Assembly (NCBI GenBank): GCA_030636485.1
Contig: DAOVWV010000011.1
Location: 1 to 13,842, forward strand
DNA length: 13,842 bases
Direction: 5' to 3'
Origin: Methyloprofundus sp.
Lineage (GTDB): Bacteria > Pseudomonadota > Gammaproteobacteria > Methylococcales > Methylomonadaceae
The translations under genes and the position numbers were made by a program. Of the stretch, positions 1-11,783 are shown one piece after another. Under the pieces are notes generated by a model. That model searched no databases and was not told the DNA's origin. It saw only the letters and a list, made by a program, of their open reading frames with translations. Position 1 is the first letter of the stretch; each line of letters opens with the position of its first letter.

Positions 1-570
1 GGGGGTTGTTCTAAAAGGACCACCCGATGCAGTCAATAAAATACGCCTTGCAGAAGGCGCATCATGCCCAGTCGTATAATTCGCAGGCATACATTGAAAA
101 ATAGCATTATGCTCGCTATCAATCGGCAACAATACCGCGCCGGAATCTTTGACCGCCTGCATAAAAATATCACCAGACATCACCAATGATTCTTTATTTG
201 CTAGCAATACCGTTTTCCCTGCCTGTGCAGCAGCTAAAGCGGAAAGCAAACCGGCCGCCCCCACAATGGCAGCCATCACTGAATCAACTGATTCCAGTAT
301 CGCCACTTCGACCAAAGCTTCTGCACCGACCAGAACTTTCATATCCGCAATCGCTGTACCCACGATTTTAGCTTTAAATTCCGCCCCTTTTTCTTCATTT
401 ACAACGACCGCATATTCAGGCTTAAACTCTAAGCACTGAGTAAATAAAGCATAAACATTGCTATTCGCCGTTAAGGCAATCACCTTATATTTATCTGCAT
501 GACGTTTAACAACATCTAATGTGCTAACACCGATAGAGCCTGTCGCCCCTAATATACATATGCCCTTCAT
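1..570 (-). CDS. dxr: 1-deoxy-D-xylulose 5-phosphate reductoisomerase, partial (3' end beyond window)
   Basis: Dxr (IspC) converts DXP to 2-C-methyl-D-erythritol 4-phosphate with NADPH and a divalent metal, the committed step of the MEP isoprenoid pathway in the cytosol. The first 190 residues are visible. The N-terminal Rossmann motif GATGSIG is at residues 8-14. The region around AAIVGAAGL and LLANKESLV matches the family closely. The metal-binding stretch [11 protein letters not shown] has D151 and E153, equivalent to Asp150 and Glu152 of the E. coli enzyme. The frame is open to base 1, reading SGGPFRTTP at the edge, so the catalytic loop and C-terminal domain lie outside. The ATG at 570-568 overlaps the cdsA stop (ATGA), which implies translational coupling. 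Its product feeds IPP/DMAPP, the substrates behind UppS in the same operon. Confidence 0.97.
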
Positions 571-1439
571 GAATACATCCACCGTATAAACCATACACCC
601 GCATAGAAAACGGGAATTGCTGCAATAACGCTATCCAGGCGATCCAACAGGCCACCGTGACCTGGCAAAATCGTACCACTGTCTTTCACACCACGAATCC
701 GCTTTGCTGCACTAAAAAACAAATCACCATAAATGGAAACCAATACAGTAATCACTGAGAGTAACATAAAATCTATGATACTGAGAAAAGAGAAGCCAAA
801 AGAAAGCGTAAAGACCAAGCCCATGACAGCAGCGGCAACTAATGCCCCATTCATCCCTTCTACTGTTTTTCCTGGACTAATGTCAATGGCCAGCTTGGTA
901 ATACCAAACTTTTTACCCGCAAAATAAGCTGCGATATCCGCCGCCCAGATTAGCAAAAAGAAATACATCGTCATTGCCGGCTCTTCCAATACCATTAAGC
1001 GCGATAAAAAGAACCACGCAGCAAGTAGCACCAGGCCACCCAGCAATAACTTCTTAAACTGACTTAATTTGATCTCCAACAATTCAGCCCCTGATTTACG
1101 AATCTTAAGCATGACCCAAACCCAGAATAACACAGCCGGAATCATCAATAATTCGATAACCCCTGAATAGGTTCTAATGTCGGGCCAGCTTGTCAATTGC
1201 GCTAAAACCTCCAGTGCCTGTGTCCAGAAATGTAAAAAAATCATGGGAATCAACATGACAAGTAAAAAGACAACCTTGCCCAGCACTGTCTTAACGTCAG
1301 CCAGATTTGCCCACTCCCAGGCGGCAATCAATAAAACAATCGCCCAGAGTAGCGTGAAGTAAACATGAGGCAGCAAAAAGATGGCACACACCACCAAAGG
1401 GGCTAAAATTGAAGCCGTTATAACGCGTTGAAGTAACAT
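567..1439 (-). CDS. cdsA: Phosphatidate cytidylyltransferase (CDP-diglyceride synthase)
   Basis: CdsA makes CDP-diacylglycerol from phosphatidic acid and CTP in the inner membrane, the precursor of all bacterial phospholipids. The 290-residue product is the usual length and is strongly hydrophobic throughout, with several membrane segments (for example residues 8-45, 55-72, 95-112, 132-150, 155-175, 198-240). The family signature is at residues 243-269: [13 protein letters not shown] followed by [12 protein letters not shown]. The conserved [15 protein letters not shown] (about 165-179) and ISPGKTVEG (187-195) are also present. The ATG at 1439 gives the expected N-terminus, though only a poor ribosome-binding site precedes it. 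The stop overlaps the dxr start by 4 bp. A 271-bp gap, most of it a MITE-like insertion, separates it from uppS upstream, whereas the rest of this operon is tightly packed. Confidence 0.97.
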
Positions 1440-1511
1440 TTTTTATTATTTTTTCTAAGGGGGTTATAAAAAAGAAATCCAGCTGAATATAGCAATAACT
1501 TAAACTATTTC

Positions 1512-1689
1512 GTCACTTTTCATTATTCACGGATAAACGAAGATAAAGCTTGTGCTCAGCTTGACTGGGTAAGGTCGTCATTCCCGAAGTTTGTTATCGG
1601 GAATCTACGTTGAACATAGATTCCTGCTAACGGCATGCAGGAATGACCGCTTTTGCAGAGTTCAGCTACCAGCGAATAATGAGAAGTAC
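1512..1689. mobile_element. MITE-like non-autonomous element, copy 1, in the uppS-cdsA gap
   Basis: This is a 178-bp non-coding element with imperfect terminal inverted repeats. The left end starts GTCACTTTTCATTATTC and the complement of the right end reads GTACTTCTCATTATTC. A perfect 8-bp direct repeat, ACTATTTC, flanks it at 1504-1511 and 1690-1697 and looks like a target-site duplication. Inside is a compound palindrome at 1577-1647, from GTCATTCC to GGAATGAC, made of two sub-hairpins: TTCCCGA/TCGGGAA and ATTCCTG/CAGGAAT. It lies 13 bp beyond the uppS stop. A second copy at 11516-11697 is in the opposite orientation and matches it over most of its length. No transposase is encoded, so movement in trans is inferred. 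The GTCATTCC hairpin core resembles repeats widespread in Proteobacteria. Confidence 0.85.
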
Positions 1690-1710
1690 ACTATTTCTTC
1701 CTATTATAAG

Positions 1711-2466
1711 TCAATCAGACATACTCTGAACCTGCTCACTAGTCCGTCCAAAGCGTCGCTCTCTAGTCATAAAATCATCGACTGCATCCTGCATAACCTG
1801 CGCATTAAAGTCAGGCCATAACTTCTCGGTAAAATGAAATTCTGTATAAGCAAGCTGCCATAAGAGAAAATTACTCACGCGCTTTTCACCACCCGACCTG
1901 ATAAACAAATCAGGGTACGGCAAATCAGGAATAGACAAAGCACTTGCAATCATTGACTCATCAATTTCTTCAGGAGCAACCTTGCCGTCCTTAACCTGCT
2001 GGGCAATAAACTGCATGGCTAACGCCATATCCCTATGCCCACCATAATTAGCGGCAATAACCAGCGTCAATCCAGTATTATTTTCCGTTTGCCGTTCACT
2101 TTCTGCCATTTTCTGCTGTAAGACCTCAGAAAACTCAGCCCGCTCACCAATAAAACGTAAACGAATATTATTTTTATCCAGGCGATTGACTTCCTTCTGC
2201 ATAGTCGTCATAAACAGCCCCATCAACTTAGAGACCTCTTCCTTAGGGCGACGCCAATTCTCACTACTGAAAGCAAATAAGGTTAATACCTGTATATCCT
2301 TTTCTGCACAAAACTCCACCACCCGCTTAACCGCTTTAACACCTGCCGGATGTCCCATAACACGTGGTAAATGGCGTCGCTGCGCCCAGCGGCCATTACC
2401 ATCCATAATAATGGCAATATGCCTGGGGTAGTGCGGCTTATCCCTTGCGCCTTGTTCAATTTGCAT
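1711..2466 (-). CDS. uppS: Undecaprenyl diphosphate synthase (cis-prenyltransferase)
   Basis: UppS (IspU) condenses farnesyl diphosphate with eight IPP units to give C55-PP, the carrier lipid for peptidoglycan and surface polysaccharides. The 251-residue product is the typical length. The N-terminal diphosphate-binding motif HIAIIMDGNGRWA is at residues 16-28, with catalytic D22. FAFSSENWRRP is at about 64-74 and VIAANYGGHRDM at about 136-147. The C-terminal signature PDLFIRSGGEKRVSNFLLWQ is at 185-204, with R190, R196 and S198, and E209 follows in AYTEFHF. The start lies 11 bp beyond frr, with an AAGG-type ribosome-binding site overlapping the intergenic gap. It belongs to the pyrH-frr-uppS-cdsA-dxr unit. 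Confidence 0.97.
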   Translation of the reverse strand: MQIEQGARDKPHYPRHIAIIMDGNGRWAQRRHLPRVMGHPAGVKAVKRVVEFCAEKDIQVLTLFAFSSENWRRPKEEVSKLMGLFMTTMQKEVNRLDKNNIRLRFIGERAEFSEVLQQKMAESERQTENNTGLTLVIAANYGGHRDMALAMQFIAQQVKDGKVAPEEIDESMIASALSIPDLPYPDLFIRSGGEKRVSNFLLWQLAYTEFHFTEKLWPDFNAQVMQDAVDDFMTRERRFGRTSEQVQSMSD

Positions 2467-5670: not shown

Positions 5671-5842
5671 TCTTTTCTCCAGATTATTTTCGGAATTGAT
5701 CCGAAAAGGGTTACGCCTCCAGCCACCCCAGTTGGAAACCGGTTTTTAAACCAGCACCCTACCAACCGTGACGATAGCTGTGAGTATTAATCATACTTTA
5801 AATAACCATCCTTACAGACAACCATAAAAAGCACTCAATGAA
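5671..5842 (-). promoter_or_regulatory. Structured rpsB leader, probable S2 autoregulatory RNA
   Basis: From the inferred start near 5842 to the rpsB ATG is about 170 nt of non-coding RNA rich in stems. On the minus strand CUGGUU/AACCGG forms a hairpin with a UAAA loop, inside GGUUGG/CCAACU. This is followed by GGGGUGGCUGGAGGCGUAAC and then an 8-bp stem UUUUCGGA/UCCGAAAA with a UCAAU loop (5707-5687), just before the ribosome-binding site. The rpsB-tsf operon of gammaproteobacteria is known to be repressed by S2 through a conserved leader of about this length and layout. Assignment to that family is by resemblance only, without a covariance search. Confidence 0.6.
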
Positions 5843-11426: not shown

Positions 11427-11515
11427 ACCGCTGTCATCATTATCATATACTCCACACAGCCAGCTGAACTTTATCAATAAAAGCGTGGTATTATAGTCGG
11501 TTAATATACTATTCA

Positions 11516-11697
11516 GTCACTTCTCATTATCCAATGGCATCTGAACGATACAAAAAGTCGTCATTCCTGCATGCTGTTAGCAGGAATCTATGTTCAATGT
11601 AGATTCCCGATAAATGCTTGTGCCCACGCTTGACTGGGTAAACTTCGGGAATGACGACCTTTTCACCTGCATTTACCCGTGAATAATGAGAGCTTAC
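11516..11697. mobile_element. MITE-like non-autonomous element, copy 2, downstream of tupB
   Basis: This 182-bp non-coding copy is related to the element at 1512-1689 but reversed. Its ends are GTCACTTCTCATTAT and, on the complement of the right side, GTAAGCTCTCATTAT. The flanks are ACTATTCA (11508-11515) and ACTCTTCA (11698-11705), an 8-bp direct repeat with one mismatch, close in sequence to the duplication of copy 1. The core again reads GTCATTCC to GGAATGAC with paired hairpins. A 26-nt block (11616-11641) is inserted in the arm of one hairpin and lies elsewhere in copy 1. The 357-bp gap between tupB and the oxidase gene holds this element and otherwise only unrecognised AT-rich flanks. 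Confidence 0.82.
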
Positions 11698-11783
11698 ACT
11701 CTTCAGACTAGGCAGGGATGCTTACACTTTAATGCTTTAATATCCGTTTATTAACGCCCCTTTTTATTCTTGCCAGTCTTACT

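Follow-up and report, generated by a model that had tools for sequence, protein, structure and literature searches.

The 178-bp element at positions 1512-1689 of the window (the whole stretch of 13,842 nucleotides of Methyloprofundus sp. DNA under analysis) is in all likelihood a non-autonomous MITE derived from a single-ORF IS66-family IS of Methyloprofundus and moved in trans, because an IS66 element of the sister species M. sedimenti has these same ends and is flanked by 8-bp duplications. Such an IS had been proposed as a search target in the earlier note on this DNA, and it is present.

The element has GT..AC ends and inverted-repeat arms (TCATTATTC/GAATAATGA), within which a repeat finder returns an inverted pair of 21 nt at 1515-1535/1667-1687 with 81% complementarity. 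Its left terminal inverted repeat (GTCACTTTTCATTATTCACGGATA, 1512-1535, plus strand) is the counterpart of the end on the transposase-5' side of the parental IS, and its right terminal inverted repeat (..GAATAATGAGAAGTAC, 1666-1689, minus strand) corresponds to the end on the transposase-3' side. A perfect 8-bp target-site duplication, ACTATTTC, read directly in the sequence and without strand, borders the element on the left (1504-1511) and on the right (1690-1697), and these two flanks are the only occurrences of the octamer in the whole window, both strands counted. The perfect duplication, the GT...AC ends with their arms and the 178 bp between the duplications, all of them described earlier from the letters, are thus confirmed. 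Between the ends lie a 24-nt unit (GCTTGTGCTCAGCTTGACTGGGTA, 1548-1571, plus strand) that is present or absent among copies and occupies here site A, after GATAAA; a CGTC-tagged REP hairpin 1 (CGTC-ATTCCCGA..TCGGGAAT, 1576-1605, plus strand); and, head to head with it, a CGTC-type REP hairpin 2 (1619-1648, minus strand), whose tag reads GGTC in the window copy. None of the listed ORFs of at least 80 aa overlaps the element, and a scan at gathering thresholds places no Rfam family there. The element therefore displays the small size, the lack of coding capacity and the terminal inverted repeats of a MITE. The ends of the window copy are degenerate (GTCAC.., ..GTAC), the right one having lost one base (GTAC for GTTAC), and this copy is consequently probably no longer mobile.

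The parental IS66 element and the dispersed family

The ends of the element recur about 1.65 kb apart in the genome of M. sedimenti (G010). The IS at one of these loci (L159) measures 1,647 bp and contains one long ORF and, on the opposite strand, a frame of 108 aa. Its transposase is catalogued with 526 aa (P0001), the 560-aa reading of the ORF beginning outside the IS, and scores 68.4 bits against the Pfam model DDE_Tnp_IS66 (PF03050), whose cut-off of 23.1 it passes. M. sedimenti harbors 14 near-full-length copies of this transposase, three of them with one stop inside, and a second genome of the genus (G005) contains two copies at 89% identity. All five M. sedimenti IS copies inspected are flanked by perfect 8-bp duplications, including two longer, interrupted ones of 2.6-2.7 kb. 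The terminal tetranucleotide of the IS66 family is GTAA, and the elements of its ISBst12 subgroup consist of the transposase alone, without the accessory tnpA/tnpB ORFs. GTAA is found at both ends of the two G005 copies, while in M. sedimenti four of the five inspected copies have GTAA on one side and GAAA on the other and the remaining one (L163) has GTAA on both. The DDE transposase and the 8-bp duplication assign the parent to IS66, and its single transposase ORF to the ISBst12 subgroup; the occurrence of this IS in M. sedimenti and in G005 supplies the autonomous relative with shared ends that is expected of a MITE. Relatives of the transposase are widespread in protein databases (E of at most 0.001 for 7,970 of the 8,000 candidates that were scored), and the best of those on plasmids with near-full cover is 48% identical. 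Like other single-ORF IS66 elements of the ISBst12 type, a subgroup of IS66 according to an excerpt of PMC8024623, the parent combines a DDE_Tnp_IS66 domain with 8-bp duplications, and has GTAA..TTAC at both ends in the G005 copies and at one end in most of those from M. sedimenti; the window element differs from them in having no ORF and in matching the IS only over some 19-24 bp at each end. Repeats of 8 bp are also tabulated for the Paracoccus IS66 elements ISPpa5a and ISPpa7 (PMC3281130).

The ends common to the MITE and the IS extend over 19 bp, and over 24 bp on the right. The consensus of the right arms agrees with the transposase-3' end at 24 of 24 positions and with the 5' end at 21 of 24. 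The left-arm consensus does not discriminate between the IS ends in its first 24 bases (21 matches to either), and when 19 bases are compared it is slightly closer to the "wrong" end (18, against 17 for the other). At positions 16-27, scored over 23 copies, left arms resemble the transposase-5' end (9.4 of 12 vs 5.7) and right arms the transposase-3' end (8.1 of 12 vs 6.8). This arm specificity is read from M. sedimenti only, since the G005 IS has CACAGGC inside both of its ends.

In the host assembly (2.15 Mb, 63% complete, 394 contigs), neither the IS66 Pfam family nor relatives of the M. sedimenti transposase were found. Repeats often fail to assemble, and the element therefore relies on a transposase that failed to assemble or is stranded. 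As for the mechanism, an IS66-type DDE transposase acting in trans would bind the paired ends and carry out the insertion; the host would then repair the staggered cut, leaving the 8-bp duplications, which are themselves observed. The REP dimer would travel as a passenger, accompanied in some copies, that of the window included, by the 24-nt unit.

The search of the host genome for the element and its ends reveals a multicopy dispersed family. The 194-bp query has at least 60 matching places in the assembly (40 of 111 candidates scored), and the end pattern GTAACTTCTCATTATYCAC, allowing up to 3 mismatches, has 119 matches, compared with 3 when it is reversed. No matches to the end pattern were obtained in IMG/VR viral contigs. 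A pair scan covering the fetched stretches of the host genome returned 40 end pairs, 3 of which are second pairings of elements already counted. The 8-bp flanks of these pairs are identical in 11 cases, agree at 7/8 in 6 and at no more than 6/8 in 23; among mispaired flanks, used as control, 0.06% are identical and 0.19% agree at 7/8. The flank match goes beyond chance, because the family is dispersed and 17 of the 40 pairs reach 7-8/8 against 0.25% of mispaired flanks, and the constant length of the duplication across copies, 8 bp, is in itself a MITE feature. Copies without flanking 8-bp repeats, which the earlier note had regarded as evidence against transposition, do exist in the form of the 23 poorly matching pairs; against them stand the 17 matching ones, and the earlier reading, in which a small mobile element inserted here and duplicated 8 bp of its target, is upheld by the dispersed family and by the flank statistics. 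Decay, truncation or wrong pairing would explain the 23 pairs, and it means that many copies of the family are old or broken. The window copy itself scored only 2/8 in the scan because the base lost from its right end shifted the frame by one; with the true ends, its flanks agree at 8/8. A second copy of the MITE is located in the window at 11516-11697 (182 bp, minus strand), upstream of a gene that we take, by recognition, to be multicopper-oxidase-like. In this copy site A is empty and the 24-nt unit sits in the loop of the first REP hairpin; its left flank (ACTATTCA, 11508-11515, no strand) agrees with the right one (ACTCTTCA, 11698-11705, no strand) at 7/8.

IS66-type ends are also employed by MITEs with another core. 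In the same-genus genome G017 (99% complete), 38 matching ends are found on each strand, and most of them belong to a near-identical MITE of 123 bp with a different hairpin core (loci include L058, L309, L313, L315 and L317). Fifteen MITEs of this kind were scanned, 14 from G017 and one from G005, and their flanks agree at 8/8 in 10 cases and at 7/8 in two, so that IS66-ended MITEs have been recently active in G017. A search of that genome turned up nothing closely related to the parental transposase, its IS66-type matches being only 29-34% identical; the one such locus inspected is without MITE ends.

The CGTC-REP dimer and its vehicles

The middle of the element (1576-1648) is not IS66 DNA and consists of two head-to-head CGTC-REP hairpins. 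The earlier note had contrasted the element with GTCATTCC-type hairpin repeats: its status as a mobile unit holds, and its separation from such hairpins does not, a pair of hairpins being its very core. The CGTC tag, a stem of 8-9 bp beginning with AT and the head-to-head dimer are all present, the right tag being altered in the window copy. CGTC-tagged REPs, including the dRS3 repeats of Neisseria, have the same tag, an 8-bp stem starting with AT and head-to-head dimers (Di Nocera 2013, PMC3733652). Their loops measure 4-5 nt, with exceptions mentioned in some species (PMC3733652), whereas those described here have 9 nt, or about 33 nt in copies where they hold the 24-nt unit. An excerpt of the same work describes CGTC REPs in five bacterial phyla, apparently without a dedicated transposase, and leaves open their mobilization by other transposases (PMC3733652). 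All CGTC-1 dimers of Halothiobacillus neapolitanus reside within a 41-bp palindrome, and the text available for the palindromes that enclose REP dimers mentions neither duplications nor a transposase (PMC3733652); in contrast, the enclosing palindromes described here are MITEs with target duplications, one of them with an identified transposase. The GTAG-REP/REPIN sequences moved by RAYT differ in their tag, GTAG there and CGTC here.

A REP census pattern matched 103 times in the host genome (100 places among the matches listed). In that genome 69 REP clusters were classified, including 14 situated close to the edge of a contig. IS66-type ends, called at up to 5 mismatches of 19 (reversed-pattern control, 0), flank 27 clusters on both sides and 23 on one side, while one cluster has the ends of a different element, carrier 2, on both sides and 18 are without recognized ends. 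In M. sedimenti, the clusters found with the same pattern are mostly embedded in carrier 2, whose ends read CCTGATTACCCATAACTCTCAGC: 20 of 32 clusters carry them on both sides (up to 5 mismatches of 22), and another 7 have one such end plus a weaker second one (6-7 mismatches). A tally of the remaining clusters by hand gave one with IS66 ends, three with one end only and one with none. Flanks that lack a carrier-2 end show 10-13 mismatches in M. sedimenti and at least 8 in the host genome, where no carrier-2 ends are found at up to 3 mismatches. It follows from these tallies that the same hairpin dimer rides mainly on different vehicles in the two species. Carrier 2 is also a duplicating element: among 36 end pairs from M. 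sedimenti and relatives (loci include L331, L334, L347 and L364), the flanks agree at 8/8 in 15 and at 7/8 in 10, against 0.08% and 1.1% of mispaired flanks. Many carrier-2 loci were chosen by their REPs; among pairs fetched by the end pattern alone, 10 of 14 contain the REP tag. No parent IS of carrier 2 appears among the places that match its ends. Three further types of inverted ends were seen by eye around REP dimers, namely TATACCAATCCCAATA, GGCATCCTTCAT and CCTGAGTTCGGG (loci of the three types: L042, L239, L226; L012, L393, L412, L426; L425, L429, L435). The dimer is perhaps the core of three more MITEs; the end-pair scans of these carriers 3, 4 and 5 gave 9, 4 and 0 pairs, with no convincing duplications.

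These observations bear on the reading that the mobile unit is the CGTC-REP dimer itself, moved by another enzyme such as one of the Y1/RAYT type, with the IS66-like arms as passengers or targets. The residence of the dimer inside carrier 2 as well, a well-supported family with terminal inverted repeats (36 pairs), and the 18 of 69 host clusters without a recognized carrier end would fit such a reading, which is nevertheless improbable: the duplications are found at the IS66-type ends and not at the borders of the dimer, where none of 63 dimers (all fetched loci) shares 5 or more border bases and 8-bp matches stay at the mispaired level, and the IS66-ended MITEs of G017, devoid of CGTC REPs, have 8-bp duplications all the same. 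Y1 enzymes employ a mechanism without target duplications, and a Y1-type origin of the core remains compatible with these data since that mechanism would leave no mark at the borders. It is likewise highly improbable that the element is a MITE of another 8-bp-duplicating IS family whose ends resemble those of IS66 by accident. Other IS families do produce 8-bp duplications, and the score of the transposase against the NCBIfam IS66 transposase model NF033517 (E 2e-38, 132.4 bits) lies below the cut-off of 180; against this, the element shares 19-24 bp of end identity with an IS, and the ORF of that IS scores above the Pfam threshold for IS66. Finally, a generic intergenic hairpin repeat with a coincidental 8-bp match, suggested by the REP-like core and by the 23 of 40 pairs at or below 6/8, is extremely improbable given the 17 pairs at 7-8/8 against 0.25% of mispaired flanks and the existence of an IS that matches the element in its ends and in its duplication length.

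A unit of about 24 nt (GCTTGTGCCCACGCTTGACTGGGT) is contained in some copies and missing from others at each of three sites: the loops of both REP hairpins, and site A, which lies outside the hairpins. Of the 18 genomes of the genus, 10 contain the unit according to an exact-pattern search, never in reversed orientation, and all 53 distinct contexts are a REP loop or site A (loci include L012, L014, L207 and L279), the split between hairpins 1 and 2 being unreliable owing to the error-tolerant expression used. TAAA or TAAC precedes the unit in 41 of the 53 contexts. The following base is A in all 53, a figure to be read with the fact that the search pattern behind many contexts required that A. 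In one copy without the unit, TAA[AC], a motif chosen post hoc, occupies 6 of 304 strand positions, all three unit sites included. Among 30 copies scored (from the 40 pairs, 6 were dropped by hand as double or odd pairings and 4 had no REP motif), the unit is missing in 8, located at site A in 10, in the loop of hairpin 1 (B) in 3 and of hairpin 2 (C) in 5, and doubly present as AB in 3 and as AC in 1. The tree of these copies, stripped of inserts, is mostly unresolved, good support being confined to 3 of its 27 inner branches; the unit states require 16 changes on it against 17.4 for shuffled labels, a value as low being reached in 49 of 200 shuffles, and do not cluster, an outcome that favors neither a single origin nor recurrent insertion. 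The pattern may have arisen by repeated insertion, by loss, or by recombination among the copies. In the small dispersed repeats of cyanobacteria treated by Elhai in 2008, some sites reportedly contain a very short unit that is missing from others which match in all else, a likeness by description.

At one place in M. sedimenti (C1:622034-623859; L160, L338), an IS66 copy lies directly beside a REP dimer, with the duplication TATCGTCA, and carrier-2 ends flank both. The IS66 copy is apparently inside a carrier-2 MITE, as nested mobile elements. The arrangement hints at a route by which a REP dimer could have been placed between IS66 ends. REPs are known as targets of IS (PMC1525189).

The element in the uppS-cdsA operon

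The element is inserted between an upstream operon gene at 1711-2466 (minus strand) and a downstream one at 567-1439 (minus strand), two ORFs that we take to be uppS and cdsA from recognition of their products and not from a family search. uppS and cdsA are two essential genes of this marine methane oxidizer. The junction, described earlier as otherwise compact, is indeed so in most relatives: the two genes are 271 bp apart in the window, and of the 15 genomes of the genus in which a uppS locus was found, 11 have a spacing of 41-55 bp. Longer spacers of 169, 228 and 319 bp, unrelated in sequence to the element, occur in 3 of the 15, and that of 228 bp belongs to the nearest genome (UppS identity 91%). 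The remaining spacer (L255) looks short and was left unscored since cdsA is unmatched there. The insertion sits in the spacer after the uppS stop codon and breaks no reading frame, and a terminator scan of the element yields no sites and no terminator-like T-run; for both reasons the operon would be able to tolerate the insertion. Promoter-like consensus matches number 4 against 0.8 expected. One pattern match of this type, TTCAGA-16-TATAAT at 1703-1730 (minus strand), is located just upstream of the element and points toward cdsA. The RNA of the operon strand is predicted to fold strongly (-62.2 kcal/mol, z -6.1), and by virtue of this predicted fold it may be processed or may affect mRNA stability. 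Elsewhere in the window, a t44 RNA (Rfam RF00127) is found at 5710-5802 on the minus strand, upstream of an rpsB-like ORF.

Precedents and meaning of the association

A MITE in an operon is ordinary. The Chunjie MITE of Geobacter uraniireducens (235 bp) is, by description, likewise a short multicopy element in an operon (PMC10969869). That review contains no mention of IS66 in the main text at hand (PMC10969869), and the best-ranked open-licence PMC matches included no previous description of CGTC REPs inside IS66 MITEs. The element is thus known in kind, as a MITE of an IS66-family IS, and it is set apart as a variant worth following by its REP-dimer core, which at least one other MITE family also has. 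Its value lies in the link of CGTC REPs to an identified transposase: a CGTC dimer stands between ends for which the transposase is identified, the duplications show that the whole unit moved, and M. sedimenti has that dimer on a second element, again with duplications. The question of how these REPs are mobilized becomes testable in this way.

A broader reading can be put forward tentatively, although the odds are somewhat against it, in which CGTC-REP dimers are exchangeable MITE cores that ride several unrelated IS families, with nested levels of hairpin insertion that would point to an activity on single-stranded hairpin tips. The REP dimer would have been inserted in MITE palindromes and the 24-nt unit, in turn, in REP loops after TAA, and the dimers would be spread by whatever transposase recognizes the arms around them, the vehicles differing between species. 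If true, this would answer how CGTC REPs, which lack a transposase of their own, disperse.
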